Assembly (NCBI GenBank): GCA_947472765.1
Contig: CANJCM010000049.1
Coordinates: 1 to 34,589 of the forward strand
Length of the DNA stretch: 34,589 nucleotides
Direction of reading: 5' to 3'
Source: Opitutia bacterium
GTDB taxonomy: Bacteria; Verrucomicrobiota; Verrucomicrobiia; Opitutales; Opitutaceae
This document shows positions 4,736 to 30,077 of the stretch, in pieces (the first letter of the stretch is position 1; every line of letters begins with the position of its first letter). The position numbers and the translations under genes were made by a program. The notes beneath the pieces are model-generated. The model saw only the letters and a list, made by a program, of their open reading frames with translations, was not told the DNA's origin and ran no database searches.

Positions 4736-4822
4736 GGGCGCGCACGAGGCGCGCCCCTACGACGGCCTGTCGGCACGACTTTCCTAACCATTCGCATTGT
4801 AGGGGCGTGGCTTGTCCACGCC
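4736..4822. repeat. REP hairpin pair, CTYGT-loop class (locus 1)
   Basis: Two hairpins face away from each other. The minus-strand one (4736-4760) reads GTAG, stem GGGCGCGC, loop CTCGT, closing stem. The plus-strand one (4799-4822) reads GTAG, stem GGGCGTGG, loop CTTGT, closing CCACGCC. The stem base pairs differ in a compensatory way, while the tetranucleotide and the loop pattern are kept. The pair occupies the gap between the small protein gene and the Dabb gene. Confidence 0.85.
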
Positions 4823-4903
4823 TGAGGCGACGGCCGCCGTTCTTGATCCGCGCCCAGCTTTTGCCGTTGAGCCCCGCTGGCGTGGCGTCCTACTCACCGG
4901 GCC

Positions 4904-5203
4904 ATGCTCGTACACACTGTATTCTTCTGGTTGAAACCTGAACTGACCCCGGCGCAGCGGGCCGAATTCCGGCGCGGCGTCGAGACCCTCACGCAGATCA
5001 AGGCGGTGGATAAGGTCTACATCGGCAAGCCGGCGGCGACCGAGAAGCGCCCTGTGATCGACGACTCGTACGACGTTGGTCTCACGGTCATCTGCAAGGA
5101 CACCGCCGCGGAGAAGGCCTACCAGGTCGACCCGCTGCATCTGGCGTTCGTCGCGAACTGCAAGCAGTTCTGGACGCGGGTCCAGATCTACGACGCGGAC
5201 TGA
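4904..5203 (+). CDS. Dabb (stress-responsive A/B barrel) domain protein
   Basis: 99 residues, the usual length for a stand-alone Dabb domain (PF07876), starting MLVHTVFFWLKPELTPAQRAEF. The features are the N-terminal VHTVFFWLK strand, a central DVGLTVICKDTAAEKAYQVDPLHLAFV segment with the conserved P-x-H near the end of the domain, and a C-terminal strand RVQIYDAD. Members form dimeric ferredoxin-like barrels; some are plant polyketide cyclases, others stress proteins of unknown biochemistry. No neighbour suggests a pathway. It is followed by a convergent hflX, with a REP doublet between. Confidence 0.85.
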   Translation: MLVHTVFFWLKPELTPAQRAEFRRGVETLTQIKAVDKVYIGKPAATEKRPVIDDSYDVGLTVICKDTAAEKAYQVDPLHLAFVANCKQFWTRVQIYDAD

Positions 5204-5231
5204 GCAGGACTCACCGTATCCCTGGATTTAG

Positions 5232-5306
5232 GTAGCCCTGCCCGTGAGGGCAGGGACCACGTCTTGCTGGGCTTGAAGTCGTCCCGCTGCTCACGCAGCG
5301 GGCTAC
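5232..5306. repeat. REP hairpin pair, GTGA-loop class (locus 1)
   Basis: Plus-strand hairpin: GTAG at 5232-5235, then CCCTGCCCGTGAGGGCAGGG (5236-5255), with 8-bp stem and loop GTGA. Minus-strand hairpin: stem CCCGCTGC, loop GTGA (read on minus), 5283-5302, with its GTAG at 5303-5306. The two point at each other. The pair sits between the convergent Dabb and hflX genes, where its hairpins could also slow transcription from both sides. Confidence 0.9.
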
Positions 5307-5364
5307 CAGCAGCTTCGGATTCCGAGACCTTGGTCAGGTCACCACGTAAGCCGCCTCGTGGCCG

Positions 5365-6648
5365 CTATTTCGCCTTCGATACGACGAAGGGCGCGAAGTA
5401 GCCGGTCTGCGTCGCCGGGAAGCGTCCTTTGATCCGGACGCCATCGTCGGTGTGCTCCTGCTCGTGGATTTGCCCGAGCTCGTGGAGCCGCGCGATCACG
5501 TCATAGCGATCCGGGGGGACCAGCAATTCGGTCGCACTCACGGTATCGGTCGCCAGTTCGAGGCAGCGGGTCTCGAGTTTATCCAGACCGGCGCGGGTGC
5601 GGGCGCTGACGCGCAGTCCATCCGGCTCCAGTTGGCGCGCCCGTTGAATGAGCGCGGGAGTGGCGGCGTCCACCTTGTTGAACACCGTCACGATGGTCTT
5701 GTCGCCCGCGCCCAGCTCCGCGAGCACGGCGAGCGTGGTGGCGTGGTGCTGTTCGAAATTCGGATTCGAGACGTCGAGGATGTGCAGCAGGAAGTCCGCG
5801 ACGACGACTTCCTCGAGCGTGGCCTTGAAGGCCTCGACCAGGCCGTGGGGCAGGCGCCGGATGAACCCCACCGTGTCAGTGACGAGGAGCTTCTGGTTGC
5901 CCCGCAGCACGAGCTGCCGGGTGGTCGGATCGAGCGTGGCGAAGAGCTTGTTGGCCGCGAGGACCTCGGAGCCGGTGAGCGTGTTCAGCAGGGTCGACTT
6001 GCCCGCGTTGGTGTAGCCGACGATCGCGCAGGTGGGCACGGGGACGCGCTGGCGTTTCCGGCGCTGCACGTCGCGCTGCTGGACGACGTTGATCAGCTCG
6101 CGCTTCAGGTGCGAAATGCGATCGCGGACGGTCCGGCGATCCTGCTCGAGCTGGGTTTCGCCTTCACCGCCCATGGCGCCTTTGCCGCGCTGACGGGAAA
6201 GATGGGTCCACGCCCGGGTCAGCCGGGGCAGCGAGTATTCCATCCGGGCCAGCGCGACCTGCAGCATGGCTTCGCGCGTGTGGGCGCGGTCGGCGAAAAT
6301 TTCGAGGATGACTTCCTGCCGATCGATCACGGCGAGACCGGACATCTCCTCCCAGTTGCGCTGCTGGGCGGGGGAGAGCGCCTCGTCGAACACGATGACA
6401 TCGGCGCCATCGGCCTTGGCCTGCGCGATGAGTTCCTCGGCCTTGCCGCTTCCGAGCAGGAGGGCCGGGGTGGGGCGGCGAAGGTTGACGAGGACGGAGT
6501 TGGTGACGCGCAACCGCAGGTTCTCGACCAGCTCCTTGAGTTCCAGCAGCAACTCCGCTCCTTCGCCCGGGGCCATGGTGTCGGTCTGGATGCCGACGAG
6601 AAAAGCGCGTTCGAGCTGGGTCGGTTTGTCGGTGAGGAAGTCAGCCAT
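5365..6648 (-). CDS. hflX: GTPase HflX (ribosome-associated)
   Basis: 427 residues, typical HflX length. The N-terminal ribosome-binding domain holds RRPTPALLLGSGKAEEL (about 57-73) and DEALSPAQQRNWE (88-100). The linker has the family signature GGEGETQLE (160-168). The GTPase core has G1 GYTNAGKST (211-219), G3 DTVGF (258-262) and G4 NKVD (324-327). The C-terminus ends with a short beta domain. HflX binds the large subunit and splits or rescues stalled 70S ribosomes in stress. It is convergent with the Dabb gene. The MBL hydrolase on the same strand ends 62 nt upstream, so the two may share a transcript. Confidence 0.97.
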   Translation of the reverse strand: MADFLTDKPTQLERAFLVGIQTDTMAPGEGAELLLELKELVENLRLRVTNSVLVNLRRPTPALLLGSGKAEELIAQAKADGADVIVFDEALSPAQQRNWEEMSGLAVIDRQEVILEIFADRAHTREAMLQVALARMEYSLPRLTRAWTHLSRQRGKGAMGGEGETQLEQDRRTVRDRISHLKRELINVVQQRDVQRRKRQRVPVPTCAIVGYTNAGKSTLLNTLTGSEVLAANKLFATLDPTTRQLVLRGNQKLLVTDTVGFIRRLPHGLVEAFKATLEEVVVADFLLHILDVSNPNFEQHHATTLAVLAELGAGDKTIVTVFNKVDAATPALIQRARQLEPDGLRVSARTRAGLDKLETRCLELATDTVSATELLVPPDRYDVIARLHELGQIHEQEHTDDGVRIKGRFPATQTGYFAPFVVSKAK

Positions 6649-6710
6649 CAGTAGGAGTCAGGCAATCGGTCGCGGTCGTGGAGTCAAACGGGCGTCGCGG
6701 CCCGCGGGCC

Positions 6711-7535
6711 TCAGCGGGCGAAGAAAGGATTATGCAGCTTTTCCTGCCCGAGCGTCGTGATCGGGCCGTGCCCGCAGGCGAGCACCGTGTCGCGCGGCAG
6801 CGTCAGCAGCTTTTCCTTGTTGAGCCGGAATTGCTCCTCGAACCGCGTCGCGCTGCCGCCCATCGAGCTGGCGAAGATGGAATCGCCGACGATCGCCAGC
6901 GGCCAGCTCAGCCCGGTGATATAGAAACTCGTCATGCCCGGCGAATGACCGGTGGTGGAGAGCGTCTTGATCGCGATGGCGCCGATATGAAAATGGGCGT
7001 TTTCCTTGAACGTCTTCGCGCCCGGATAGTCGCTCGGCTCGAGTTCGCTCGCCCACACCTCCGCCTTCGTCTCCTTCACGAGCCGGTCCAGATCGGCCAC
7101 ATGATCCTCGTGCGTGTGCGTGAGGAAGACATAGCGCAGGCTGAGTCCCTCCGCGTGGATCACGTCCAGCATGGGTTCCGCCGTGGCACCCGTGTCGAAG
7201 GCAGCGGCAATCTTCGCCCGCGCGTCCCACACGAGGTAGCTGTTCACCGTCATGCTGCCATAGGTCGTGTTGAACACGGCGAACCCCTTCGGGAAAACGG
7301 GCTGCTGCGGGTACCAGCGTTTGTGGGCCAGCGCCTCGAGGGCGTCGGGCGAGAGGCGCAGGTGCCGGGCAACGCGCCGGATGATGGCATCGTTGACCTC
7401 GCCCTTCTTGACCGCGGCGAGATCCGCGAGCGTCACCTCCGCGCGCTGCGCCAGTTCGGCATCCGTGATTTTCAGGCCGCGCTGGGCCTTGTTGATCACA
7501 TCGTCAAAATTGTCCTCGAGCGGAATGCGCGCCAT
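6711..7535 (-). CDS. MBL-fold metallo-hydrolase with N-terminal HTH-like domain
   Basis: 274 residues from ATG 7535; the frame extends upstream only as antisense of the mutarotase gene. Residues 5-75 form a short helical domain (ITDAELAQRAEVTLADLAAVKKGEVNDAIIRRVARHLRLS) that looks like a Cro/XRE helix-turn-helix. Residues 85-270 are a metallo-beta-lactamase fold with the metal motif HTHEDH (140-145), H197 in TTGHSPG, D218 in VGDS and H256 in CGHGP. This arrangement resembles glyoxalase II or persulfide-dioxygenase-like hydrolases, but the substrate is not deducible. It is divergent from the mutarotase gene with 81 bp between, which could be a shared regulatory region. The fusion may allow self-regulation; that is inference. 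Confidence 0.85.
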   Translation of the reverse strand: MARIPLEDNFDDVINKAQRGLKITDAELAQRAEVTLADLAAVKKGEVNDAIIRRVARHLRLSPDALEALAHKRWYPQQPVFPKGFAVFNTTYGSMTVNSYLVWDARAKIAAAFDTGATAEPMLDVIHAEGLSLRYVFLTHTHEDHVADLDRLVKETKAEVWASELEPSDYPGAKTFKENAHFHIGAIAIKTLSTTGHSPGMTSFYITGLSWPLAIVGDSIFASSMGGSATRFEEQFRLNKEKLLTLPRDTVLACGHGPITTLGQEKLHNPFFAR

Positions 7536-7616
7536 GCCGCACTCAAAGCGCCGCAGTCCAGAGAAGCAAAGAGCAATTGGAATTGCGCGCGACGCGCTCC
7601 GCCTGACTCTCGCTGC

Positions 7617-8006
7617 ATGATCCGGAACGGCATCCTGAATCCCCATCTGCTGTCGCTGCTCGCCCGCGTGCGACACACCAATGCGCTGGTCATTGCCGAC
7701 CGTGGCTTCCCGTCCTGGCCTGCGGTCGAGACGATCGATCTCTCGCTCGTCGATGGCGTGCCCACGGTTCTGCAGGTGCTGCAGGCGATCCGCGCGAACT
7801 TTGTCGTGGCCGAGGCCTATATGGCGGACGAATTCCGGCAGGTGAATCCCGCCGGCGTGCAACGGACGTTCGCCCGGGCCTTGCGGGGTGCAAACCTGAC
7901 GCATGAGCCGCATGTGGCGTTCAAGCGCCGCGTGCCCGGCGCCATCGGGCTGATCCGGACCGGCGATACGACTCCTTATGCCAATCTGATTCTCGTGTCC
8001 GGCTGA
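7617..8006 (+). CDS. RbsD/FucU family sugar mutarotase
   Basis: 129 residues, normal length for RbsD/FucU (PF05025). The N-terminal signature NPHLLSLLARVRHTNALVIADRGFP contains the conserved His20 and Asp28 of the active site. The C-terminus has RRVPGAIGLIRTGDTTPYANLIL, matching the family's xxIRTGxxTPYANxIL ending. These enzymes interconvert pyranose with furanose forms or the anomers of ribose or fucose. The next gene on the strand, 69 nt on, is a UxuB-like dehydrogenase, so a joint role in sugar or uronate catabolism is reasonable. Which sugar is used (ribose or fucose type) cannot be decided here. Confidence 0.9.
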   Translation: MIRNGILNPHLLSLLARVRHTNALVIADRGFPSWPAVETIDLSLVDGVPTVLQVLQAIRANFVVAEAYMADEFRQVNPAGVQRTFARALRGANLTHEPHVAFKRRVPGAIGLIRTGDTTPYANLILVSG

Positions 8007-8075
8007 ACCCGATCTGTGTCACGGGCGGATTTCCCGTTGCCACCCGCCGGAGCCGCCGCCTTTGTTCAACTCCCC

Positions 8076-8867
8076 ATGAGTACTCCCTCCGATTACCTTA
8101 CGTCCCTGTATTCACTCCGTGGCAAAGTCGCGGTCGTCATTGGCGGCACCGGCGAGCTCTGCGGTGCCATGGCCGAGGGCATGGCCGGCGCGGGAGCCGA
8201 GGTCGTCCTCGTGGGCCGGAATGAGGAGAAGGCCAAACCGCGCATCGCGCGGATCGAGGCGGCCGGCGGCAAGGCCTGGTTCGCGTCGGCCGAGGCGAGC
8301 GAAAAGGCCGCCCTTGAGCAGCTCCTCCAGACCGTCCTAGCGAAGTCGGGCCGCGTCGACATCGTCGTCAACGGCGCCGGGGTGAACTCCGCGACCCCGT
8401 TCCTCGAGATTGCCGAGGACGAGTTCGACCGGATCGTGAAGATCAATCTCAAGGGCGTGTTTCTGGGCTGCCAGATTTTCGGTAAATATCTCGTCGATCG
8501 CGGCGAGGGCGGCTCGATCATCAACCTGGGTTCGATGTCGGGCATTGTGCCGCTGTCGCGGGTCTTCACCTATTCGGCGACCAAGGCCGCGGTGCACAAT
8601 CTCTCGAAGAACCTCGCCCGCGAGTGGGCGCCGAAGCGCGTGCGGGTCAACACCATCGTCCCGGGCTTCTTCCCGGCGGAACAGAATCGCAAGATCCTGT
8701 CGCCCGAACGGGTTGCCAGCATCATGACGCACACGCCGATGAAGCGTTTTGGCGAGGCCCGCGAGCTGATTGGGGCGACGCTGCTCATGGCGAGCGATGC
8801 GGCCGGCGGTTTCATCACCGGGTCGGAAATCGTCGTGGATGGCGGCTACCACGCGATGACGATTTAA
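8076..8867 (+). CDS. SDR family oxidoreductase, D-mannonate oxidoreductase / gluconate 5-dehydrogenase-like
   Basis: 263 residues from ATG 8076 (an upstream in-frame codon at 8016 adds 20 unlikely residues). It is a classical SDR: nucleotide loop GGTGELCG (23-30), NGAG (99-102), catalytic Ser153, Tyr166 and Lys170 (YSATK). The C-terminal [20 protein letters not shown] and [16 protein letters not shown] are characteristic of the group containing fructuronate/mannonate reductases (UxuB-type SDR) and gluconate 5-dehydrogenases. It would use NAD(P)H on a keto-sugar acid in the cytoplasm. The neighbouring mutarotase supports a sugar-acid role. The exact substrate is uncertain. Confidence 0.87.
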
Positions 8868-9018
8868 CCGGTGGGGAGGGCCCGGCGCCCATCGGGGAAT
8901 TCCCGGTGGGCCATCCGTCTGGTCAGATGCGGCCTAGTACATAGGAATCTCTACAGGCCCTTAATTATTGCCAACAGTCGCTTGCTATAGGGCGTCGGAC
9001 CTACTAGGTATGTCTTTC

Positions 9019-9396
9019 ATGGCTACTAACAAATTGAAGGAACTCGAGGCCGCGCGGGCCAAGCTCGCGAATCTCGAACAAGCAATTGCGAGCGAACTTC
9101 GCTCCGAACTCGCGGCCCTCCCGGCCCAGTACGGTTTCGCGACCGCCAGGGAATTCGCCGCCGCCGTCCTCTCCGCCTCCGGAGCCCGTCGCGGCCGCAA
9201 GCCGAAGGGCGCCGCCGCCGCGAGCACGGGTGGCAAGCGCCGCCGCCGCGCCGTCATCACCGATGAGACGCGCGCCAGCGTGAAGAAGATGGTTGAGGGC
9301 GGGAAGACCGGCAGCGAGATCGCCAAGGCCCTCTCGATTTCCCTGCCCAGCGTGCAGAACATCAAGAAGGCGCTGGGGCTCGTGAAGAAGCGCTAA
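9019..9396 (+). CDS. H-NS-like coiled-coil / HTH DNA-binding protein
   Basis: 125 residues from ATG 9019, which has an AGG about 10 nt upstream; ATG 9010 is an alternative adding three residues. Residues 3-35 are a charged, heptad-like coiled coil (LKELEAARAKLANLEQAIASELRSEL), followed by LPAQYGFATAREFAAAV. Next is a basic Ala/Gly linker with an AT-hook-like RRGRKPKG, and finally a C-terminal helix-turn-helix of resolvase type (TGSEIAKALSISLPSVQNIKKALG). The plan of oligomerising helix, linker and DNA-binding tail resembles H-NS or MvaT, though without sequence identity I can claim. A nucleoid or silencing role is inferred. It has its own strong terminator, suggesting a monocistronic, well-expressed gene. 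Confidence 0.75.
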   Translation: MATNKLKELEAARAKLANLEQAIASELRSELAALPAQYGFATAREFAAAVLSASGARRGRKPKGAAAASTGGKRRRRAVITDETRASVKKMVEGGKTGSEIAKALSISLPSVQNIKKALGLVKKR

Positions 9397-9422
9397 GCGC
9401 AAACTTCCCGGCTGATTTTTTC

Positions 9423-9454
9423 ACCCCCGCCAACCGGCGGGGGTTTTTTGTTTT
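9423..9454 (+). terminator. Rho-independent terminator of the H-NS-like gene
   Basis: Stem ACCCCCGCC (9423-9431), loop AACC, closing stem GGCGGGGGT (9436-9444), followed by a T-run interrupted by one G. The 9-bp GC-rich stem lies 26 nt after the stop codon at 9396. It separates this gene from the housekeeping operon starting at 9491. Confidence 0.93.
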
Positions 9455-9490
9455 GGCGGGAGGGCACCGATGCCCGAGGGTGACCCGCGT

Positions 9491-10405
9491 ATGACACCCC
9501 CTTTCATCCAGGCCAATACGAACGGTCGCCTGCACTCTGCTCACGAAGCGTCGATCACGCCGCTGAGCCGCGGCTTCCTGTATGGCGACGCGATCTACGA
9601 AGTGTGGCGTTCCTACGACGGCGGGCTGTTCGCCTGGGAGGAACACTTCGTGCGCCTCGAGGCTTCGGCCCGTTCCGTCTATATGGAGCTGTCGTTCTCC
9701 CGCGCGACCATTCTCGGCGAAATCCGGCGCACGGTGGCGGCGTTTCGCACCACGACCGGTTTTCGCGGCGATGTCTATGTCCGGCTCCAGGTCTGGCGTG
9801 GCGCCGGGCCCATCGGGCTCGACACCGCGCTCGCGGACCGGGCGGAGTTTGTCCTCCTCGTGCAGCCGTGTCCGGTGCCGTCACCGGAAAAGCTGCGCAC
9901 CGGCCTCAGCCTTTCGCTCGCTACCAGCCTGCGGCGCAACCCGATCGAGAGCCTGAGTCCCGCGTGGAAGACGGGCAATGCCCTCAACGCGATCCTCGGC
10001 CTGCGCGAGGCGCGCGCCCGCGGCGCCGATGAGGTCATCATGTTGAACCTGCGCGGCGAGGTCACGGAGGCCGCGGTCGCCAATGTCGCCTTCGTGCGCG
10101 AGGGCGTGATCGTGACGCCACCCCTCGAGGCGGGGATTCTCTCGGGCATCACGCGTCAGCTCATGCTCGGCCCGGTCGCGGCGCAGATCGGAATCCCGAC
10201 GAAGGTCGAGGTGCTGACCCCCGCGGATTTCCCGGCCATGAGTGAGTGCTTCCTGCTCTCGACGACGCGCGACGTGATGCCGGTGGCTTCACTGGACGAC
10301 CAGAAGTTCCGGGTGGGCGAGGGCACGGTGGGCGCTCGGTTGAAGGCGGCGTTCGGCGATTACGCCCGCGACTACGTCCGCCGCCATCCGGAGCTGGCGG
10401 TCTGA
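9491..10405 (+). CDS. PLP-dependent aminotransferase class IV (BCAT / D-AAT / ADC lyase family)
   Basis: 304 residues from ATG 9491, preceded by GAGGG about 10 nt upstream; ATG 9470 is an alternative adding 7 residues. It is fold-type IV: substrate-loop opening ITPLSRGFLYGDAIYEVWR (22-40), catalytic Lys160 in SPAWKTGN, GADEVIMLNLRGEVTEAAVANV (178-199) carrying the PLP-contacting Glu193, and GILSGITR (215-222). It could be a branched-chain or D-amino-acid transaminase, or aminodeoxychorismate lyase (PabC). It is first in a run of six close co-directional genes ending in folC, so a PabC role in p-aminobenzoate supply is attractive. Sequence alone does not settle it. Confidence 0.85.
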   Translation: MTPPFIQANTNGRLHSAHEASITPLSRGFLYGDAIYEVWRSYDGGLFAWEEHFVRLEASARSVYMELSFSRATILGEIRRTVAAFRTTTGFRGDVYVRLQVWRGAGPIGLDTALADRAEFVLLVQPCPVPSPEKLRTGLSLSLATSLRRNPIESLSPAWKTGNALNAILGLREARARGADEVIMLNLRGEVTEAAVANVAFVREGVIVTPPLEAGILSGITRQLMLGPVAAQIGIPTKVEVLTPADFPAMSECFLLSTTRDVMPVASLDDQKFRVGEGTVGARLKAAFGDYARDYVRRHPELAV

Positions 10406-10451
10406 CCAAATGGCGATTGCGCCGCGCGCCGCGCCCTCGCGAAACTTGGGC

Positions 10452-10880
10452 ATGCGTTTCCTCGGCATCGACTACGGCACCCGTCGGATCGGGTTGAGCT
10501 TCGGCGACGAACTCGGCGTGGCGACGCCGCTGCCCGCGATCACCGAGGCCGATCGCGAGCGGCAGTGGGTCGCGCTGCGAACCGTTGCCACGCAGCGGAG
10601 GATTACCGAAATCGTCATCGGCCATCCCGTGAACATGGACGAAACCGTGGGCCAGAAGGCGAAGGAGGTGGAGGCCTTCGCGGAGCGGCTGCGAACGGAG
10701 TTCAAGCTGCCGGTGCATCTGGTGGATGAGCGGCTCACGAGTTACGAGGCCGAGTCGACGATCGCCAAGTCGAAGCGGCGCGATCTGCGGGCCAGCGGCA
10801 TCATCGATTCCCGGGCCGCCACCATCATTCTGCAGGATTATCTCAATCTGCGATTCCCCCCAAATGAGGTGCCGGCGTGA
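10452..10880 (+). CDS. ruvX: Putative pre-16S rRNA nuclease / Holliday junction resolvase-like YqgF
   Basis: 142 residues from ATG 10452, which puts the first catalytic Asp at residue 7 as in the family; an upstream ATG at 10410 would add 14 residues. RNase H-like fold with GIDYGTRRIGLSFGDE (5-20), IVIGHPVNMDETVG (54-67), VDERLTS (91-97, Glu93) and IIDSRAATIILQDYL (117-131, Asp119). The three acidic residues expected for catalysis are present. YqgF matures the 5' end of 16S rRNA in E. coli and may also act on DNA junctions. It is the second gene of the operon, 46 nt after the aminotransferase. Confidence 0.95.
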   Translation: MRFLGIDYGTRRIGLSFGDELGVATPLPAITEADRERQWVALRTVATQRRITEIVIGHPVNMDETVGQKAKEVEAFAERLRTEFKLPVHLVDERLTSYEAESTIAKSKRRDLRASGIIDSRAATIILQDYLNLRFPPNEVPA

Positions 10881-10937
10881 CCTTGTGTCGTGACGCCGCG
10901 GCGCGGCACACTTGGGTCGGATGACCGATTTGCGACC

Positions 10938-16390: not shown

Positions 16391-16466
16391 GTGGCCCTGT
16401 CCGTGAGGACAGGGACTTCTTGATCGCTTCGCCTAACGCCGTCCCGCTGCTCACGCAGCGGGCTCC
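16391..16466. repeat. REP hairpin pair, GTGA-loop class (locus 2)
   Basis: The first hairpin is GTGG followed by CCCTGTCCGTGAGGACAGGG (16395-16414). Compared with locus 1, one stem base pair has changed on both sides (C to T and G to A), which is compensatory. The second is the minus-strand hairpin with stem CCCGCTGC and loop GTGA (16443-16462), followed by CTCC, which reads GGAG on minus. About 15 bp on either side (TCCCTGGATT, ACTTCGGAATTC) are also similar to locus 1. Confidence 0.9.
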
Positions 16467-16535: not shown

Positions 16536-16609
16536 GTCATCCGTTAGATGACAAGTCCGTCTGCTCCCGGAGGGAAAAATCCACGGTTTGTCATCTGATA
16601 GATGACAAA
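16536..16609. promoter_or_regulatory. Twin palindromes (candidate operator pair or leader hairpins)
   Basis: Site 1 is GTCATCCGTTAGATGAC (16536-16552). Site 2 spans 16587-16609 with perfect 10-bp arms TTTGTCATCT / AGATGACAAA around GAT. They share GTCATC, a 5-bp centre and GATGAC, and their centres are 54 bp apart, about five helical turns. They end 131 bp before the helicase start. They could be operators for a dimeric repressor or, if transcribed, two RNA hairpins in the helicase leader. The regulator is unknown. Confidence 0.55.
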
Positions 16610-22588: not shown

Positions 22589-22918
22589 GACGACAGTCTT
22601 GGGCGGGCGTCGCGATCATGGCCAGCGGCCATTTTCGTTTTTGGCTTAGGCTGCCGCTTCGCTCGGTACTCGAATGAGGGACAGAGGCCTGCCGACGAGA
22701 AGCAGCCGGGCACTGATGGGTGGACGTTCAGCTCGACGGAATGCAGCCCTGGACGGTGGGGGCACCGTCCCTCCATGGATTGTTCCTGGAGAGAAGAGCG
22801 AACTGACGTCTGAACGATCCGCCTACCATGGAGGGCGGGTGCCCACACCCGCCGATTTCGTTCCACTGCATCGTTCCGGCTCGAAATGGGCGCCCGCAGG
22901 GTGGGGTGTGTTCAGGGG
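22589..22918. other. Gene-free 330-bp region with REP-like repeats
   Basis: Contains a degenerate CTCGT-class hairpin remnant (22686-22713, GGCCTGCCGACGAGAAGCAG...) and a CCCN-loop hairpin pair (22751-22853). No coding frame is credible. Any promoter for the histidine kinase operon should lie here, but none is obvious. Confidence 0.6.
22751..22853. repeat. REP hairpin pair, CCCN-loop class (locus 1)
   Basis: Minus-strand unit (22751-22776): ATGGAG, stem GGACGGTG, loop CCCC, closing CACCGTCC. Plus-strand unit (22828-22853): ATGGAG, stem GGCGGGTG, loop CCCA, closing CACCCGCC. The stems differ by compensatory pairs. The GGAG tetranucleotides face each other. Confidence 0.88.
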
Positions 22919-23989: not shown

Positions 23990-24018
23990 CTAAGCGCAAA
24001 GCTGCGAAGGCGCTAAGG
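23990..24018 (+). repeat. 8-bp-period array (TAA + GCGCAAAG type)
   Basis: CTAA followed by units GCGCAAAG, CTGCGAAG and GCGCTAAG. It belongs to the same 8-bp-period family as 20120-20273, 27839-27872, 29935-29966 and 32980-33009. Confidence 0.75.
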
Positions 24019-24203
24019 GCGACTCGACGATCCTTTTCACGCGGATACGCGGAGACGGGAGATTCTAAAACAGGGAGATCGGTGCGACCAGGAAGCGAAC
24101 GCTCCGAACTTCCCGACCTCCCCGGCCTTCCTGTTCCGATCGTCTGAAATCCTCGCGTGAGCCGACGATCCGGAAGCAAAGTAGTGAAAATTCCCCCCAG
24201 AAA

Positions 24204-24277
24204 TTAAACGCAGAGGTCGCTGAGGACGCAGCGGCCGGACAGAACCCCTCCGTGTCCTCGGCGTCCTCTGTGTTCAA
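24204..24277. repeat. Inverted pair of GA-rich period-8/9 repeats
   Basis: The left arm begins TTAAACGCAGAGGTCGCTGA. The right arm starts at 24248 with CTCCGTGTCCTCGGCGTCCT and ends TGTTCAA. The arms are imperfect reverse complements, with units of 8-9 bp. Confidence 0.75.
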
Positions 24278-24436
24278 ACGGTTCAGCTCCGGAACATACG
24301 GTAAAATCTGCTCCGGCCGACAGTTCGTTCTGGCGTCAACCGTCTGTCGTCCGCCGACCGAACGAGAGATTTGGCATCGCGCATTCGGCGGCACACCAAA
24401 CGATCGCCGTTGGCTCGGTTTCTTAATTCTTCCTCC

Positions 24437-25663
24437 TTACTTTTCCTCCGTCACCAGCAGCCCGAAACACACGGCACCCACGAGGCACGCCGCGCCGGCC
24501 GCGATGAAGGCGGCAAAGTACTGTCCGGTCGTCGCGACGATCCAGCCGGTGACAACGGGAGCCACGAAGCCGGGGATGTTGCCGCACGCGTTCTGCAGGC
24601 CGGTCCAGCGGCCGGCCGCGGCGGGTCCGGCGAGTGCCTGGGTCAGCGCGTGCAGGTTCGACGCATACACGCCGAGCGTGAAACAGGAGGTGAAGAGCGC
24701 GGCGAGCGCCCAGTTCAGATCGGACACCACGGTCAGCGGGAGCAGCACGGACGTGAGCAAAAGCCCAATGACGAGGAAACGTTGCCGCGTCCGCACGGGC
24801 GATCCGCCACGCGCAATCAGCCGGTCCGCGAGCATGCCGCCACCCAGCGACGGCAGCACCATAATCAAAAACGGATAGGCGCCGATCACGCCCATGGACT
24901 TCAGCGAGAAGTGCCGCTCGTTGACGAGATACGAGGGCAGCCACGTGAGCACGAAGTACCACGCATAGTTGGCACCCATCAGTCCGCCGCACGTTCCCCA
25001 GAACGCGCGACGCCGGAACAGCTCGCGCCAGCCGATCCCCGGGGCCTTGGAGGCGGCACCGGTGGCTGTGACAGGTTCAGCGTGGCGCAGCCGGGGGGCG
25101 AACAAGAGCCATGGCACCAGCCAGATCAGGCCCGCGACGCCGACGATGATAAAGAGCGAACGCCATCCGTGGTCCGCCATCAGCCAGGCCCCGCAGGCGA
25201 TTCCGATCGCCGGTCCGATACGCGCACCGAACGCGTCTATCAGCGAGTTCGCGAGTCCACGCCGATGCTCGGGAATCACCACAGCGAGAATTCGAGCCGT
25301 CGCGGGATAAGTGACTGATTCGCCGACCCCGAGCAGCAGCCGCATCGTGAGGAAACCGGCGAAGCCCGTCATCGCCGCCGTGCCGAGCGTTGCCGCTGAC
25401 CAGAGGAGGAATCCGCCGGCATACACCCACTTCACGTCGATGCGATCGCAGAGCCAGCCGACGCCAATCTGACAGAACGCGTAGGTGAAGAAGAAGGCCG
25501 AGAACAACCAGCCGAACTCGGTCGGCTTGATGCCCAGCTCCGGTCCGATCACCGGCGCGGCGACGGACAGGTTGCCGCGATCAAAGAAGCTGATCGTCAT
25601 CCCCACGACCAGCAGGGCGACGAGGCCCCAGGGACGCGCGGCAGCGGGGTGGGGCGAGGACAT
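24437..25663 (-). CDS. MFS transporter, anion:cation symporter type (sugar acid)
   Basis: 408 residues with about 12 hydrophobic helices. Helix 1 is WGLVALLVVGMTISFFDRGNLSVAAPVI, with the DRxNLSVAAP motif of the ACS family (glucarate, galactonate and hexuronate carriers). The loop 2-3 motif is degenerate (WLCDRIDVKWV). Other markers are RLLLGVGESVTYPATARILA and a central cytoplasmic loop with ELFRRRAFWG. Family members import sugar acids with protons. An exported lactonase lies downstream and an RpiB-type isomerase upstream, all on the minus strand; this fits a scattered sugar-acid module, although repeat DNA separates them. Confidence 0.9.
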   Translation of the reverse strand: MSSPHPAAARPWGLVALLVVGMTISFFDRGNLSVAAPVIGPELGIKPTEFGWLFSAFFFTYAFCQIGVGWLCDRIDVKWVYAGGFLLWSAATLGTAAMTGFAGFLTMRLLLGVGESVTYPATARILAVVIPEHRRGLANSLIDAFGARIGPAIGIACGAWLMADHGWRSLFIIVGVAGLIWLVPWLLFAPRLRHAEPVTATGAASKAPGIGWRELFRRRAFWGTCGGLMGANYAWYFVLTWLPSYLVNERHFSLKSMGVIGAYPFLIMVLPSLGGGMLADRLIARGGSPVRTRQRFLVIGLLLTSVLLPLTVVSDLNWALAALFTSCFTLGVYASNLHALTQALAGPAAAGRWTGLQNACGNIPGFVAPVVTGWIVATTGQYFAAFIAAGAACLVGAVCFGLLVTEEK

Positions 25664-25683
25664 GCGCGTGGTCAGAGGGAAAC

Positions 25684-25813
25684 GAGAGCGGTTTAATTAT
25701 TAGCGCAGCCATCGGGCATGGATGAGCCACGCCCCGACACGGCTTCCGTAGAGGCGCGCCTCGTGCGCGCCCGCGATGTCTAGCCGGATACACTTCAATT
25801 TAATCTGCACTAG
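25684..25813. repeat. Composite REP element, copy C (degenerate)
   Basis: Related to copies at 29537-29679 and 33138-33279. It has the left flank AGAGCGGTTTAA, a minus-strand CTCAT-loop hairpin (about 25714-25738), a 9-nt spacer, and a plus-strand hairpin GTAG (25748) with arms around CTCGT (to 25772). The right flank resembles the other copies (GATACACTTCAATTTAATCT...), ending in CTGCACTAG. The terminal CTAG supplies the stop codon of the rpiB-like gene. Confidence 0.8.
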
Positions 25814-26277
25814 CGCGCTCCGCCGGGCCGGTGATCGAGCGCGTTCAGCTTGTCGACGCGGCGTCTCACATCGGGATCGGTGCTGTATTCGGCCGCGAGG
25901 TAGGCGACGAGGCAGTCCTCCATCACCTTGCGTCCGATGACGAGGCCGCCGATGCAGGCTACATTCACATCGTCGTGCTCGACGCACTGGTGCGCGCAAT
26001 AGATGTCGTGAATCAGCGACGCGCGGATGCCGGACAGCTTGTTGGCCACGATGCACGCGCCCACGCCGGAGCCGCAGACGAGAATCGCGCGGTCGGCCCG
26101 GCCGTCCTGCACGCGGGCGCAGACGTCGCAGGTGATGTCGGGGAAATCGACGGGTGTGTCGTTGAAGGTGCCGCAGTCCTCGACCGTGTGGCCCAGCCCG
26201 CGGAGGAATTCGATGACGAAGCTCTTCTGAGCGAAACCGGCATGATCGCTGCCGACGGCGAGACGAAATTTCTTCAT
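25810..26277 (-). CDS. rpiB: RpiB/LacA/LacB family sugar-phosphate isomerase
   Basis: 155 residues from ATG 26277 (MKKFRLAVGSDHAGF); an upstream in-frame start would add 13 unlikely residues. Motifs: SDHAG (10-14), phosphate and active-site loop CGSGVGACIVANKLSGIRA (68-86, Cys68 as catalytic base) and HDDVNVACIGG (101-111), replacing the usual HNDANVLCLGG. It isomerises ribose 5-phosphate/ribulose 5-phosphate or an analogous aldose/ketose phosphate such as allose or galactose 6-phosphate. The TAG stop lies in the terminal CTAG of a composite repeat, so the last codons may have been altered by insertion. The length is close to normal for the family. Confidence 0.92.
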   Translation of the reverse strand: MKKFRLAVGSDHAGFAQKSFVIEFLRGLGHTVEDCGTFNDTPVDFPDITCDVCARVQDGRADRAILVCGSGVGACIVANKLSGIRASLIHDIYCAHQCVEHDDVNVACIGGLVIGRKVMEDCLVAYLAAEYSTDPDVRRRVDKLNALDHRPGGAR

Positions 26278-26609
26278 GGGGTGATGCGTTTGTGGAGTCG
26301 GCCGCAAAACGCGCAAGCGGGAACCCGGCCGCGGAAGGGCCGCGAAGTATGGTGAATCGGCCGCAAGAAGCAGCCGGCCGGAGCGATGGCCGCAAAAAGG
26401 CTCAAAAGGCGCAAAAGCTGACCGAGGCGGTTGCGGGCTCTGAGCGAGGGCGGGTAGCGCCGCGTTTCCGAACCGGCGGAGATCGTTCCCGAGTTGGAGT
26501 GCCTGCCGCGTGGCACGGGTCTCCCGACCCGTGTAGACTGTATTGATTACCTTCCCGCTTTCACGGGTCAGGAGACCCGTGCCACCCGCGGCGCTCCTGA
26601 CCCGAACAA
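26278..26609. other. Gene-free 332-bp region with repeats
   Basis: Holds repeated GGCCGCAA units (at about 26298, 26358 and 26389), a GCAAAA-rich stretch (GGCTCAAAAGGCGCAAAAG, about 26399-26417) and a TCCY-loop hairpin pair at 26510-26585. No ORF looks coding. Confidence 0.6.
26510..26585. repeat. REP hairpin pair, TCCY-loop class
   Basis: Plus-strand hairpin: GTGG, stem CACGGGTC, loop TCCC, closing GACCCGTG (26510-26533). Minus-strand hairpin: the same stem with loop TCCT and GTGG at its 5' side (26562-26585). Both stems are perfect 8-bp matches, facing each other 28 bp apart. Confidence 0.9.
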
Positions 26610-27050
26610 TCAGAAGTACGAATCCAAAAACGCCGCCGCCTCTGAGATCCCGCCGATCTTGTTCGTCGCCTGGCGGTAGAATTTGAAATTCAGCTCGGTC
26701 TCAGGGCGGCCGTCCTTCCAATCGGCGAAACGTTTGAGTTCGGTGCGGCCGAGCGGTCGCTTGGAGAGGGCGGTCCGGCGAACCGTGATGTTCACGCGCG
26801 GCGTCTGCCGGGCGATGCCGGGCTTCCGTGGGACGGCGCTCGCCGAGGTGATTACGCCACGCGCCACGAGGCCCGATCCGTCTTCGGTTTCGCTGGCGAA
26901 GATGTAGATCGTATCGCCCGCCACGATTCGCCGTCCGCCGTACATCGTCTTCTGCGCGGGGAATGAGAATCTCGTCGCCGACGGTTTGGTCACTTCGGCC
27001 TTGATGAGGTAGGCGATTGTCGATCGCGGGAGCTGTGATGATCTTTTCAT
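26610..27050 (-). CDS. Uncharacterised protein, possible PUA/EVE-like fold
   Basis: 146 residues, basic. The middle reads MYGGRRIVAGDTIYIFASETEDGSGLVARGVITSASAVPR: a strand, a VxxGDTIYIFASE turn and a glycine-rich GLVARGVI strand, the rhythm seen in PUA-like/EVE and ASCH domains that bind modified nucleic-acid bases. The C-terminus FKFYRQATNKIGGISEAAAFLDSYF looks conserved. No signal peptide or membrane segment. I cannot name a family with confidence. Its 5' side faces a 75-bp inverted repeat; downstream is the TCCY-loop hairpin pair. Confidence 0.68.
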   Translation of the reverse strand: MKRSSQLPRSTIAYLIKAEVTKPSATRFSFPAQKTMYGGRRIVAGDTIYIFASETEDGSGLVARGVITSASAVPRKPGIARQTPRVNITVRRTALSKRPLGRTELKRFADWKDGRPETELNFKFYRQATNKIGGISEAAAFLDSYF

Positions 27051-27066
27051 TTATCTTTCGTCCTCG

Positions 27067-27141
27067 GTCATTCTGAGCGGAGCGAGGAATCCAGAGAGAA
27101 CCTAAAGCCGGGAGTGGATTCTTCGCTGAGCTCAGAATGAC
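27067..27141. repeat. 75-bp inverted repeat, copy 2 (26-bp arms, 23-nt spacer)
   Basis: The arms begin GTCATTCTGAGCGGAGCGAG (left) and, as reverse complement of the right arm, GTCATTCTGAGCTCAGCGAA. They differ from each other at three positions, so pairing is not maintained by compensation. The spacer is again exactly 23 nt but differs in sequence from copy 1 at 3286-3360. Confidence 0.9.
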
Positions 27142-27213
27142 AAGCCGCGGGGGCTCGGGGGCGGATGCCGATGGTCGGCGCCAGCGATGCGGTTCCCGAG
27201 CGCCCCGTGGTGC

Positions 27214-27663
27214 TCAGGAGCGCGGCGCGGGTGAGGATGGGCGTCCCCGCGCGACTTCGGCGGTCAATCGATCCAGATTCTGCTCGTTGGCCGGCGTGAT
27301 GATCGCCGCGACGCGGCGGGCGAAATCGGCGTCTTCCAGGATCTGGGTCCAGTGCACAAGCGTGCCGGTGCCGGCGGAACTGAGTTCGATCGTCAGGTCA
27401 AATTTCGGCTCGAACAGGTGGCGGATGACGACCTTTCGTGCCGCGCCGATTTCGACGAAGGTGTTCTCGTTCGGATAATTCGTGCCGTCCGGCCCGTGCA
27501 TGATGAAGGACCACTTTCCGCCCGGCCGAAATTCGCAGACCTTGAACGTGTTCGTGAACCCCGCCGGTCCCCACCAGCGCGCGAGGCGGGCGGGATCGCT
27601 GATCGCGGCGAAGACGTCGTCGGACGAAGCGTCAATTTCACGCGAGGTCTTGAAGGTGCTCAT
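27214..27663 (-). CDS. SRPBCC / AHSA1-type START-like domain protein
   Basis: 149 residues from ATG 27663 (MSTFKTSREIDASSDDVFAAISDPARLARWWGPAGFTNTF). An upstream start would add 33 residues of repeat-derived sequence. The opening with an R-x-IDAS strand, the FAAISDPARLARWWGP helix and the FRPGGKWSFIMHGPDG strand pair are standard for the AHSA1 (Aha1 C-terminal) branch of the SRPBCC superfamily. The fold binds hydrophobic ligands in a deep cavity; the ligand is unknown. The C-terminal helix ends in a disordered tail (ARGRPSSPAPRS). Confidence 0.9.
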   Translation of the reverse strand: MSTFKTSREIDASSDDVFAAISDPARLARWWGPAGFTNTFKVCEFRPGGKWSFIMHGPDGTNYPNENTFVEIGAARKVVIRHLFEPKFDLTIELSSAGTGTLVHWTQILEDADFARRVAAIITPANEQNLDRLTAEVARGRPSSPAPRS

Positions 27664-27747
27664 GGTTGGGGCAAAGGAAGAAGTAAGAGGGAAGAAGGAA
27701 GAAAACCGGCCGTCGGCGGAGGTACGAATTGGAGCGTTCCGAAGGCT

Positions 27748-27773
27748 GGCGGGTGAGGGCACCCGCCCTCCAT
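27748..27773 (-). repeat. REP hairpin, CCCN-loop class (single)
   Basis: Read on minus: ATGGAG, stem GGCGGGTG, loop CCCT, closing CACCCGCC. The stem is a perfect 8-bp match. It lies in the gap between the divergent SRPBCC and sulfatase genes. Confidence 0.85.
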
Positions 27774-27838
27774 TAATTGAGGTCGTTCTGTCATTGAGCG
27801 TTCAGAGTTCAGCGTTGGACGTTGCGCATTGCCTAGCT

Positions 27839-27872
27839 CGACGCTTCGCCCCTTCGCATCTTCGCGCTTAAC
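27839..27872 (-). repeat. 8-bp-period array (CTTCGCNN units + TTAA)
   Basis: Units CTTCGCCC, CTTCGCAT and CTTCGCGC followed by TTAACC, 55 bp before the sulfatase start. Confidence 0.8.
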
Positions 27873-27926
27873 CCCAACGACAAAAACATCGCCCGCGTCC
27901 GCGTTCGCGACACGCTCGCCGGCATC

Positions 27927-29372
27927 ATGCGCACCGGTCACCCCATCCTGGCGCTGGGCTTGTTGCTCGCCGCCGTTTCCTTCGCTTCGCCGACTTCGTC
28001 TGCCGCCACCGCGCGGCCGCCGAACGTCATCATCCTGTTCGCGGACGACATGGGCTACGCGGACATCGGACCGTTCGGCGCCAAGCCGGGCATCACGCCG
28101 CAGCTCGATCGCATGGCGACGGAAGGCCGGCGGTTTACGAGCTTCCATGTCGCCCAGGCGATTTGCTCCGCGTCGCGCTCCGCCTTGCTCACGGGTTGTT
28201 ATTCCAATCGCGTCGGACTCACCGGTGCGCTCCGGCCCGACGCCGACTACGGCCTCTCCGCCGGCGAGACGATCATCCCGCAGATGCTCAAGGCGCGCGG
28301 CTATGCCACCGGCATGGCGGGCAAATGGCACCTCGGACATCACCCGCAATTTCTGCCCGTCCGCCACGGTTTCGACGAATACTTCGGCCTGCCGTACTCG
28401 AACGACATGTGGCCGTTCAACCCGGATGCCGCCGCGCCGTTTCCGCCGCTGCCGCTGATCGAGGGCGAACGAACGCTCCACACCATCACCACGCTGGAAG
28501 AGCAGGGCACGCTGACCCAGCGCTACACCGAGCGGGCCGTGAGCTTCATCGAGCGCAACCGCGACCAGCCTTTCTTCTTCTACCTCGCCTACACGATGCC
28601 CCACGTGCCGATCGCCGCGAGTCCCCGGTTCCAGGGAAAGACCGGCCACGGGCTCTATGCCGACGTGATCGCGGAAATCGACTGGAGCGTGGGCGAGGTG
28701 CTCGCCGCGTTGAAGCGCCAGGGCCTCGACGACAACACGCTCGTCATCTTCACCAGCGATAACGGTCCCTGGCTCGTCTACGGCGACCACGCCGGTTCCG
28801 CCGGCCCGCTGCGCGAGGGAAAGCAGACGGCCTGGGAAGGCGGACTTCGCGTGCCGTGTCTGATGCGCTGGCCCGGGAAGATCCCCGCCGGCACGACCTC
28901 GAACGATTTGCTCATGACGATCGATCTCCTCCCGACGATCGCGAAACTCACCGGCGCCGCGCTCCCAGCGAAGCCGATCGACGGGCTCGACGTCTGGCCG
29001 CTCATCGCCGGCACGCCCGGCGCGAAGAACCCGCATGAAGCGTATGCGTTCTACTATCAGGGCGAACAACTGCAGTCGGTCATCTCCAGTGATGGACGCT
29101 GGAAGCAGTTCTACCCGCACGGTTACAACTCGCCGAAACAGCCGGCCGGCATGGGTGGCAAGCGCGGCGCGAATATCCCGATGAAAGTGGAGCGGCCGGC
29201 GCTCTACGATCTCGTGAACGATCTCGGCGAGACCAAGGACGTCTCGGCCGACCATCCCGACGTCGTGCAACGCCTGAACGCTTTTGCCGAGAACATGCGC
29301 ACCGAACTCGGAGACTCGCTCGAGAAGCGGGTGGGGCGCGCGGTGCGGCCCGCAGAAAAGCTGGCGAAGTGA
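27927..29372 (+). CDS. Secreted arylsulfatase-type sulfatase
   Basis: 481 residues with a signal peptide (MRTGHPILALGLLLAAVSFASPTSSAA). Sulfatase fold: NVIILFADDMGYADIG (33-48, metal-binding Asp40-Asp41), formylglycine site CSASR (80-84; Cys80 is converted to formylglycine, in the CxAxR variant of the motif), GMAGKWHLGHHP (129-140, Lys133 and His135), FFYLAYTMPHVPI, and IFTSDNGPW with the Asp-Asn metal pair. By family (S1 type) it removes sulfate esters from polysaccharides or aromatic compounds in the periplasm or outside. No maturase (FGE or anSME) is in the window. The region after it is rich in repeats. Confidence 0.95.
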   Translation: MRTGHPILALGLLLAAVSFASPTSSAATARPPNVIILFADDMGYADIGPFGAKPGITPQLDRMATEGRRFTSFHVAQAICSASRSALLTGCYSNRVGLTGALRPDADYGLSAGETIIPQMLKARGYATGMAGKWHLGHHPQFLPVRHGFDEYFGLPYSNDMWPFNPDAAAPFPPLPLIEGERTLHTITTLEEQGTLTQRYTERAVSFIERNRDQPFFFYLAYTMPHVPIAASPRFQGKTGHGLYADVIAEIDWSVGEVLAALKRQGLDDNTLVIFTSDNGPWLVYGDHAGSAGPLREGKQTAWEGGLRVPCLMRWPGKIPAGTTSNDLLMTIDLLPTIAKLTGAALPAKPIDGLDVWPLIAGTPGAKNPHEAYAFYYQGEQLQSVISSDGRWKQFYPHGYNSPKQPAGMGGKRGANIPMKVERPALYDLVNDLGETKDVSADHPDVVQRLNAFAENMRTELGDSLEKRVGRAVRPAEKLAK

Positions 29373-29416
29373 GAGCTGTTGAATCTCGTCTATCAGCCTG
29401 ACCTCACGTTTCGAAT

Positions 29417-29473
29417 CCCTGCCCTCACGGGCAGGGCCACGTTTCAGTCGTGGCCCGCTGCGTGAGCAGCGGG
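29417..29473. repeat. REP hairpin pair, GTGA-loop class (locus 3, tail-to-tail)
   Basis: CCCTGCCCTCACGGGCAGGG (29417-29436) followed by CCAC, i.e. a minus-strand hairpin with GTGG. Then GTGG (29450-29453) with CCCGCTGCGTGAGCAGCGGG (29454-29473), a plus-strand hairpin. The order of the two stems is as in loci 1 and 2, but each hairpin is reversed, so they point away from each other. Confidence 0.9.
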
Positions 29474-29536
29474 AGAATTGGCCTGCCAATATGTGTCAGT
29501 CCATTCGGCGAGCCTCAATCGGAGGGATGAGTGAAG

Positions 29537-29679
29537 CTAGAGCAGATTGAGGTGAAGTGTAGCCGATCAGAAATTGCGGGCGCGCACGAGGCGCGCCCCT
29601 GCACGAAATGACAATCGATGTAGGGGCGCGCCTCGTGCGCACCCAAAATATGCCTACGGCATTCTTTAACCCGCTCTGG
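29537..29679 (-). repeat. Composite REP element, copy A
   Basis: About 143 bp. Left flank CTAGAGCAGATTGAGGTGAA and onward. Minus-strand CTCGT-loop hairpin at 29578-29602, 17-nt spacer ACGAAATGACAATCGAT, plus-strand hairpin GTAG (29620) to 29644. Right flank ends CTTTAACCCGCTCTGG. The flanks are inverted relative to copy B, yet the spacer between the hairpins runs the same way in both. Confidence 0.88.
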
Positions 29680-29681
29680 CG

Positions 29682-29707
29682 ATGGAGGGCCGGTGCCCCC
29701 ACCGGCC
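29682..29707 (+). repeat. REP hairpin, CCCN-loop class (single)
   Basis: ATGGAG, stem GGCCGGTG, loop CCCC, closing CACCGGCC. The stem is perfect and compensatory relative to the other copies. It abuts the end of composite element A. Confidence 0.85.
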
Positions 29708-29934
29708 TTGGGTTCACGCGCGGGGACCCCGAACCTGAGATCGTCCGCTTCCGTGCATTCGGTGCACTCCGAGGTCAAAAGCTCCGGAGCTTTCACCACT
29801 GAGTCTAAGGACTACACTGAGTGGAGACTCGCAGCGAAAGTCGGCGCGAATGCGCATCCATTACGACGCCATCGAGTGTTTTTAAAACCGAGGCAACCCG
29901 AGCCAAACCGAAGCAAAGCAACGGTCCACCCAGG

Positions 29935-29966
29935 ACTCTTCGCGCCTTGGCGTCTTCGCGCTTAAC
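29935..29966 (-). repeat. 8-bp-period array (CTTCGCGC units + TTAA)
   Basis: Units CTTCGCGC, CTTGGCGT and CTTCGCGC followed by TTAAC. Confidence 0.8.
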
Positions 29967-30003
29967 TCGGTAAGGCGATCGAGCCGGAACGATGCGTTTA
30001 AAT

Positions 30004-30077
30004 GTAGGGCCGGCGCTCGTCGCCGGGCCACTTTGCGAATGAAAACCGTGGCCTGCCGACGAGCGGCAGCCCTGCAC
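30004..30077. repeat. REP hairpin pair, CTCGT-loop class (GC-rich variant)
   Basis: Plus hairpin: GTAG, stem GGCCGGCG, loop CTCGT, closing CGCCGGGCC with one bulge (30004-30029). Minus hairpin at 30048-30077: stem with CTGCCG / CGGCAG around the same CTCGT loop. The stems differ while the loop is constant. Confidence 0.78.

Follow-up and report, generated by a model that had tools for sequence, protein, structure and literature searches.

The stretch of DNA analysed here (the window, 34,589 nucleotides) is the entire contig C49 (CANJCM010000049.1) of the Opitutia bacterium assembly GCA_947472765.1, which holds 4,968,708 bases in 157 contigs and is 95.9% complete. Between its long open reading frames, as judged by eye against a mechanical list of such frames, lie short hairpins that carry a tetranucleotide tag at their 5' side, and a gene for a Y1-type transposase is found near the end of the contig. 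In a preliminary description, these hairpins had been sorted by their loops into four classes, referred to here as class A (GTGA), class B (CTYGT), class C (CCCN) and class D (TCCY). The listed hairpins were found where they had been placed (Table 1), and Rfam gave no match within the window.

All four classes were recovered by a scan in which neither loop nor tag was presupposed. Perfect stems of at least eight pairs with a loop of 3–6 bases were searched in 421,047 bases of the genome (the window and 20 further stretches), and 394 strand readings were obtained versus 100 in a control consisting of one first-order Markov shuffle. On the tagged strand, the top loops were GTGA (39), CTCGT (20), TCCC (12), CCCC (12), CCCT (11), CCCA (9) and TCCT (8), each of which occurred 0 times in the shuffle. 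GTGA was usually preceded by GTGG or GTAG, CTCGT by GTAG, TCCC and TCCT by GTGG, and CCCC, CCCT and CCCA by GGAG. The loops of the four classes were thus the most frequent ones and mostly followed the tags of their class. Strict patterns, which do not require the stem to pair, matched 443 times in the genome for class A (215 and 228 by strand), 230 times for class B (118 and 112), 339 times for class C (176 and 163) and 127 times for class D (67 and 60), and reversed-pattern controls gave 0 matches in all 38 genomes searched. With a palindrome of 20–40 bp immediately 3' of a GTAG-like tetranucleotide (GTAG, GTGG or GGAG), high copy number and inverted doublets of preferred spacing, the four classes are repetitive extragenic palindromic (REP) elements, many of them in inverted pairs (REPINs).

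Pairing was assessed at places where tag and loop were fixed and the eight stem positions were left free to pair or not, with a third-order Markov control for matching tag-loop combinations. The counts of paired positions were bimodal. Seven or eight of eight pairs were present at 16 of 19 GTAG-GTGA, 21 of 57 GTGG-GTGA, 38 of 48 GTAG-CTYGT, 33 of 103 GGAG-CCCN and 18 of 54 GTGG-TCCY places, and 0 places reached seven pairs in the control for the combinations tested. In a 1.22 Mb sample of the genome, the free stem positions were complementary in 76 of 89 class A pattern matches (mean 26.3 and highest 39 in 1000 re-dealings), 33 of 57 class B matches (mean 15.4, highest 24) and 86 of 89 class C matches (mean 29.6, highest 44). 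Complementarity in classes A, B and C is thus far above that of the re-dealings. Compensatory changes in this one genome nevertheless represent only a small number of events, because the stems of classes A (CCCGCTGC, CCCTGCCC, CCCTGTCC), C (GGCGGGTG, GGACGGTG, GGCCGGTG) and D (one main stem) are few discrete types; class B stems are more varied. The pair at 30004–30077 falls short of an exact palindrome, as both arms carry a G-G mismatch at stem position 2. Among elements with at least six pairs, the stem was perfect in 76 of 99 (A), 33 of 85 (B), 88 of 99 (C) and 38 of 42 (D), which makes class B the least perfect of the four. In a genome of another family (G041), 16 of 17 class-A-like elements with the stem CCCAGGGC were fully paired. 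Among the first 20 class A elements listed for each of two other genomes, 19 were fully paired in G015, with stems that again differed, and eight in G016, where eight of the other 12 were off by a single G-T.

Table 1. Tagged hairpins and the transposase gene of the window
Position	Strand	Class	Tag-stem-loop-stem	Remarks
4736..4760	-	B	GTAG-GGGCGCGC-CTCGT-GCGCGCCC
4799..4823	+	B	GTAG-GGGCGTGG-CTTGT-CCACGCCT	7/8 pairs; tags face in with 4736..4760 arm
5232..5255	+	A	GTAG-CCCTGCCC-GTGA-GGGCAGGG
5283..5306	-	A	GTAG-CCCGCTGC-GTGA-GCAGCGGG	partner arm of 5232..5255
16391..16414	+	A	GTGG-CCCTGTCC-GTGA-GGACAGGG
16443..16466	-	A	GGAG-CCCGCTGC-GTGA-GCAGCGGG	partner arm of 16391..16414
22751..22774	-	C	GGAG-GGACGGTG-CCCC-CACCGTCC
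22830..22853	+	C	GGAG-GGCGGGTG-CCCA-CACCCGCC	partner arm of 22751..22774
25748..25772	+	B	tag GTAG, loop CTCGT	7/8 pairs
26510..26533	+	D	GTGG-CACGGGTC-TCCC-GACCCGTG
26562..26585	-	D	GTGG-CACGGGTC-TCCT-GACCCGTG	partner arm of 26510..26533; identical stem
27748..27771	-	C	GGAG-GGCGGGTG-CCCT	single
29417..29440	-	A	GTGG-CCCTGCCC-GTGA	tags face in with 29450..29473 arm
29450..29473	+	A	GTGG-CCCGCTGC-GTGA	partner arm of 29417..29440
29578..29602	-	B	tag GCAG	within composite of about 150 bp
29620..29644	+	B	GTAG-GGGCGCGC-CTCGT-GCGCACCC	7/8 pairs; partner arm of 29578..29602
29684..29707	+	C	GGAG-GGCCGGTG-CCCC	single
30004..30028	+	B variant	GTAG-GGCCGGCG-CTCGT-CGCCGGGC	G-G mismatch at stem position 2
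30051..30075	-	B variant	GCAG-GGCTGCCG-CTCGT-CGGCAGGC	partner arm of 30004..30028; identical G-G mismatch
33172..33196	-	B-like	tag GACG	one mismatch; inside composite element
33214..33238	+	B	GTAG-GGGCGCGC-CTCGT-GCGCGCCC
33583..34575	+			long-type Y1 (HUH) transposase gene, 330 aa; NF047646 score 51.7 (cut-off 80)

Transposase genes between hairpins of one class

Eight Y1-type genes were detected in the genome at E 0.05, five of a long type and three shorter REP-associated tyrosine transposases (RAYTs). The class C RAYT (locus L012, contig C32) has class C hairpins on both immediate sides, eight in all, of which two have seven of eight pairs and one of these two the loop TCCT. A class D pair stands on each side of the class D RAYT (L013, contig C37; four hairpins), and five GTGA hairpins lie on both sides of the class A RAYT (L219, contig C9). 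For classes A, C and D, a cognate RAYT is thus flanked by REPs of its own class, and for class B none was found in this genome. The preliminary description had proposed that several RAYT specificities have acted here, and this is supported, since three RAYTs are each flanked by one class and RAYTs of the same genus adjoin B-like hairpins.

Four REP classes have very probably been spread by RAYT transposases on single-stranded DNA, no RAYT having been found for class B. Loop, tag and stem ends are specific to each class. Each RAYT would bind the folded hairpin of its own class by tag, loop and the base pairs at either end of the stem, would cleave beside the hairpin and would in this way have copied the pair through the genome. 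The stem middle would mainly have to pair and would therefore drift by compensatory change and differ between the arms of most pairs; as this difference would block pairing between the arms, each of them could fold as a separate hairpin that fits the RAYT.

By score, the class C RAYT exceeds the cut-off of 80 for NCBIfam NF047646 (REP_Tyr_transpos) with 99.5 bits. The best solved relative is E. coli TnpAREP (4er8), with E values of 8.6e-9 (C), 4.4e-8 (D) and a weak 0.078 (A), and Pfam Y1_Tnp alone misses the class A RAYT (15.3 bits vs 23), which is the weakest member by scores. The HUH histidines (H-x-H) are invariant in 18 of 18 aligned RAYTs, and one tyrosine column, conserved to at least 90% in the aligned set, is probably the catalytic one. 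Two results speak against spread by these RAYTs: the class D and class A RAYTs remain under the NF047646 cut-off with scores of 75 and 40.9, and four relatives (G012, G015, G016, G017) hold 50–118 class A matches without a class A RAYT at E 1e-8.

A class without a matching RAYT in its assembly was seen with 50 to 150 pattern matches, namely class A in these four genomes, one of which (G017) has a listed completeness of 100% and a contamination of 7%, and class D in G004, where the one match to the class D query is the genome's own B-type RAYT. At the class A RAYT of the present genome, the flanking stems CCCTGCGC and CCCGCTCC (L219, about 1275–1430 and 2000–2075) differ from the common dispersed stems CCCGCTGC and CCCTGTCC, and the third flanking stem, CCCTGCCC, also occurs among the dispersed copies. 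Copies at the flanks have diverged from the dispersed ones, a situation reminiscent of the orthoswitch described in the accessible part of Nunvar 2013 (PMC3686654).

Arms of the inverted pairs

Among 126 same-class pairs of neighbouring inverted arms in this genome, the two stems differed in 42 of 42 cases for class A, 38 of 38 for class C, 26 of 28 for class B and 2 of 18 for class D. Class A arms combine CCCGCTGC with CCCTGCCC or CCCTGTCC, and class C arms GGCGGGTG with GGACGGTG or GGCCGGTG. Spacing was 55 nt in 20 of 24 class C pairs with tags facing in and 28 nt in 23 of 33 class A pairs with tags facing out, and varied more in classes B and D. DNA folding was calculated for the 83 pairs in which both arms had eight of eight pairs. 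The state with two hairpins had the lowest energy, to within 0.5 kcal/mol, in 30 of 31 class A pairs, 5 of 6 class B pairs and 19 of 20 class C pairs with tags in, and in 58 of 67 pairs of the three classes together. When the arms were made identical (mean of two variants per pair), it was the minimum in 0 of 83, which is near a truism but puts the effect at about 14 kcal/mol. Different stems are thus predicted to keep neighbouring arms from pairing with each other, with class D as the exception.

For comparison, RAYT loci were taken from 57 genomes (this one included) and 80 public loci, giving 233 RAYTs, or 227 after removal of near-identical ones. The sets were gathered by similarity to the RAYTs of classes A–D, with part of the listed matches fetched, and are thus not a random sample; L138 and L168, which had no RAYT domain, were dropped. 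Inverted pairs were present at 54 RAYT loci, where the stems of the two arms differed in 59 distinct combinations and were the same in nine. Counted by position from the tag, 8-bp arms differed 3, 4, 6, 11, 18, 25, 9 and 4 times (38 combinations), and in relatives only 2, 2, 3, 8, 12, 23, 8 and 2 times (29 combinations; chi-square 49.6, related loci not being independent). For 9-bp arms, the counts were 1, 0, 1, 3, 3, 3, 3, 0 and 0 (seven combinations).

A tentative reading of these counts is that the RAYT reads its hairpin at separated places, namely the tag with the basal pairs, the loop, and the pair that closes it, and that the stem middle is a free zone in which selection acts for REPIN arms that fold apart. 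If true, this would answer why heterodimers predominate in most REP families. In the accessible text of Di Nocera, De Gregorio and Rocco 2013 (PMC3733652), both homo- and heterodimers are described, and the prevalence of heterodimers 'has no obvious explanation'; a concrete and testable reason for an excess called unexplained in the literature is thereby offered. Several results weigh against it, and likewise against the explanation given above. The two-hairpin state was the minimum in only 4 of 10 class C pairs with tags out. In class D, 16 of 18 pairs are homotypic, and this state was not the minimum for any of the 16 folded, so that folding apart is not required for spread. Public 8-bp arm pairs show no excess in the stem middle (5, 3, 3, 4, 6, 2, 2 and 2 differences in 13 combinations), and the reading becomes less probable because 7-bp arms also show differences next to the loop (0, 0, 9, 2, 12, 6 and 6 in 14 combinations).

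An equally tentative alternative is that arms differ because replication stalls at long perfect inverted repeats or nucleases such as SbcCD remove them. This was proposed for heterodimers in the part of PMC3733652 that is accessible, and in the fold calculation identical arms would favour the long hairpin by the amount given above. Class D, however, keeps identical arms and long hairpins in this genome with its 127 pattern matches. Selection for folding apart and removal of long repeats predict the same sequences.

Loop, tag and stem in related transposases

For the measure of conservation, 97 of the 227 RAYTs were kept, each with at least two perfect tagged hairpins, and positions were fixed. 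Over 630 pairs at a RAYT identity of at least 45%, background-corrected conservation was 0.26 for the loop, 0.24 for the whole stem, 0.34 for the stem ends and 0.13 for the stem middle. The 95% bootstrap intervals were -0.09 to 0.15 for loop minus whole stem, -0.02 to 0.28 for loop minus middle (share of bootstraps at or below zero, 0.032) and 0.07 to 0.35 for ends minus middle. At 55–90% identity (124 pairs), the values were 0.83 and 0.82 for the two variable tag bases, 0.81 for each of the first two basal positions of the stem and 0.67 for the base that closes the loop; the loop itself had 0.60, 0.40 and 0.71, the third basal position 0.35 and the middle stem bases 0.27–0.54. The association with the RAYT is thus closer for tag, stem ends and loop than for the stem middle.

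Orthologues often keep the loop while their stems change. Among class C orthologues at 53–58% identity, CCCN was retained in four of six (L030, L031, L032, L034), and among public class C loci at 51–61% identity in seven of eight (L265–L271; none at L313), with stems such as GCGGGGTG, CGGCGACG and ACGCGGCG; two of these eight were later dropped as near-copies, and L268 and L271 additionally carry single GCCT, CCTT or CCTG copies. GTGA loops were present in L217, L218 and L232 with the class A type of RAYT, and relatives of the class D RAYT had TCC, TTCC, ACC or GCC in eight loci (L059–L064, L069, L136).

The preliminary description had each RAYT 'reading the loop rather than the stem', that is, recognising loop and tag and being blind to the stem except for its pairing. 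In this form the claim is unlikely. It is favoured by class C orthologues that keep CCCN with stems as unlike as GGCGGGTG and ACGCGGCG, by the loop lying above the stem middle in the comparison of RAYT pairs, and by loop bases critical in two assayed RAYTs according to the accessible text of Corneloup 2021 (PMC8266576). However, conservation of the stem ends is at least that of the loop, and the three main stems of class C agree at six of eight positions, those of class A at four of eight. A first measure (68 RAYTs, 2144 pairs), in which loop boundaries shift between copies, had given the loop a modest lead of 0.45 vs 0.35 at 50–60% RAYT identity, and the lead over the whole stem was gone with perfect hairpins and fixed positions.

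Some of the loop data also speak against the explanation given above. Among the 97 REP-flanked RAYTs, conservation of the loop does not exceed that of the whole stem, and at 45–55% identity the second loop base shows next to no dependence on the RAYT (0.04). Other loops occur in the sets of all three classes: ACCY at L029 in the class C set, GAGA at L162 and GAA at L223 in the class A set, and other loops in L065, L072, L076 and L151 in the class D set; no supported hairpin was found at L033 (class C set) and no supported flanks at L220–L222 (class A set). The available biochemistry of other RAYTs fits a role of the loop and not a loop-only rule. As far as the accessible part of PMC8266576 goes, it covers Group 3 TnpAREP/REP pairs of S. 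maltophilia and Marinomonas, which are perfect palindromes, and reports that the stem must pair with many swaps tolerated and that the tag guides the cleavage site. In S. maltophilia, a change of the three bottom stem positions gave better cleavage, in disagreement with reading of the basal pairs, which follow the RAYT here.

Class B, related systems and other repeats

A B-type RAYT was not found in this 95.9%-complete genome, of which about 4% is missing, in searches at E 1e-10 and E 0.05. In two genomes of the same genus, one RAYT stands between GGGCGTCG/GGGCGCCG-CTTGT hairpins (G016, L146) and another between degraded class B hairpins read by eye (G004, L237). Class B would be what is left behind by a RAYT that has been lost or is missing from the assembly. 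Plain decay after such a loss is weaker as an account than it first appeared, because 40 of 57 class B mismatches concentrate at two positions (position 6 in 25 cases, position 2 in 15). The long Y1 gene of the window was considered as a partner of class B and set aside, as a class B pair is present on one side only, about 350 bp upstream; shortly past the gene the contig stops. None of the remaining four long Y1 genes is flanked by a supported REP.

It is improbable that class B is an independent element resembling a miniature inverted-repeat transposable element (MITE) and not a REP class that lost its RAYT. Some class B pairs are indeed enclosed by a composite about 150 bp long whose ends read CTAGAGC, and the genome yielded no B-type RAYT, but only 6 of 109 class B elements were within 180 nt of the composite ends tested, and the same-genus RAYTs just named adjoin CTTGT-loop or degraded class B hairpins. 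The 6 of 109 also dispose of class B as a passenger of the composite.

Copies of this composite, with CTAGAGC-type ends around a class B pair, were seen at 29539–29677 and 33140–33277 of the window, at L189 (3918) and at L210 (7725). A class B variant, GGGCGGGG-CTCGT-CCACGCCC, has one G-A mismatch common to three genomes (the 1.22 Mb sample of the present genome, G000, as well as G004 and G007); here the mismatch itself has multiplied.

An action at the RNA level, as terminators or protection of mRNA 3' ends, by which function and not transposases would keep the classes, is very unlikely: the hairpins lie between the long reading frames of the window and RNA roles of REPs are proposed in the accessible text of PMC3733652, yet Rfam is silent here, and a terminator needs neither the 5' tag and strand-specific loop that are kept, nor pairs with tags both in and out, nor three classes around their own RAYT genes. 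RNA effects may be secondary.

REPs of several classes, repeat-specific RAYTs, heterodimers and loop recognition have already been published, and the system is an unusually complete example of a known repeat system and not a new kind. In the accessible text of PMC3733652, GTAG-family REPs with repeat-specific REPtrons are described, with several families in Opitutus terrae, one of them mostly GTGG-tagged after mutation from GTAG. GTAG-type tag, several families per genome, repeat-specific RAYTs and complementary stem changes are shared with the present genome; that text contains nothing on this genome, for which the pairing of classes with RAYTs, covariation at free positions and arm differences were counted position by position. 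PMC3686654, as far as accessible, reports 22 and 13 REP classes in Pseudomonas and Stenotrophomonas, orthologous RAYTs with different REPs, and eight or nine perfectly paired bases adjoining the tag in Stenotrophomonas. Its Table 1, as read here, likewise has stem middles that change with compensation while ends and loop stay similar; it deals with other bacteria, and that text has no measure taken position by position against RAYT identity, as was made here.

E. coli REPs also join a near-constant arm to one of two alternative arms, as classes A and C do, but are imperfect palindromes with a bulge, unlike the hairpins here. For REPINs of Pseudomonas fluorescens, the accessible part of Bertels and Rainey 2011 (PMC3116915) gives the inverted doublet as the mobile unit beside specific RAYTs, and inverted doublets beside specific RAYTs are found here too. 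A single long hairpin is predicted for the symmetrical doublet of that species; in the present genome this applies only to class D and some class C pairs.

The new parts are the pairing of three classes with a RAYT each, an orphan class, and the measurements of stem middle and arm differences. No study titled on the classes of this genome was among the literature matches listed, in a search that left out most subscription papers. Three RAYT/REP pairs and an orphan class in one genome, together with orthologues of known hairpin differences in many relatives, form a set for mapping the bases read by a single-strand transposase.

Other inverted repeats were observed in the window. A fifth one, GTCATTCTGAGCG(N)AGCGAAGAATCCA, occurs at 3286–3360 and 27067–27141; in the 1.22 Mb sample, its 12-base start has 39 copies, with 10 inverted pairs less than 150 nt apart, and none lies directly beside the eight Y1 genes of the genome (nearest about 1 kb, L003). 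A further inverted repeat at 16536–16606 has arms of 19 nt that are 84% complementary (GTCATCCGTTAGATGACAA / TTGTCATCTGATAGATGAC).

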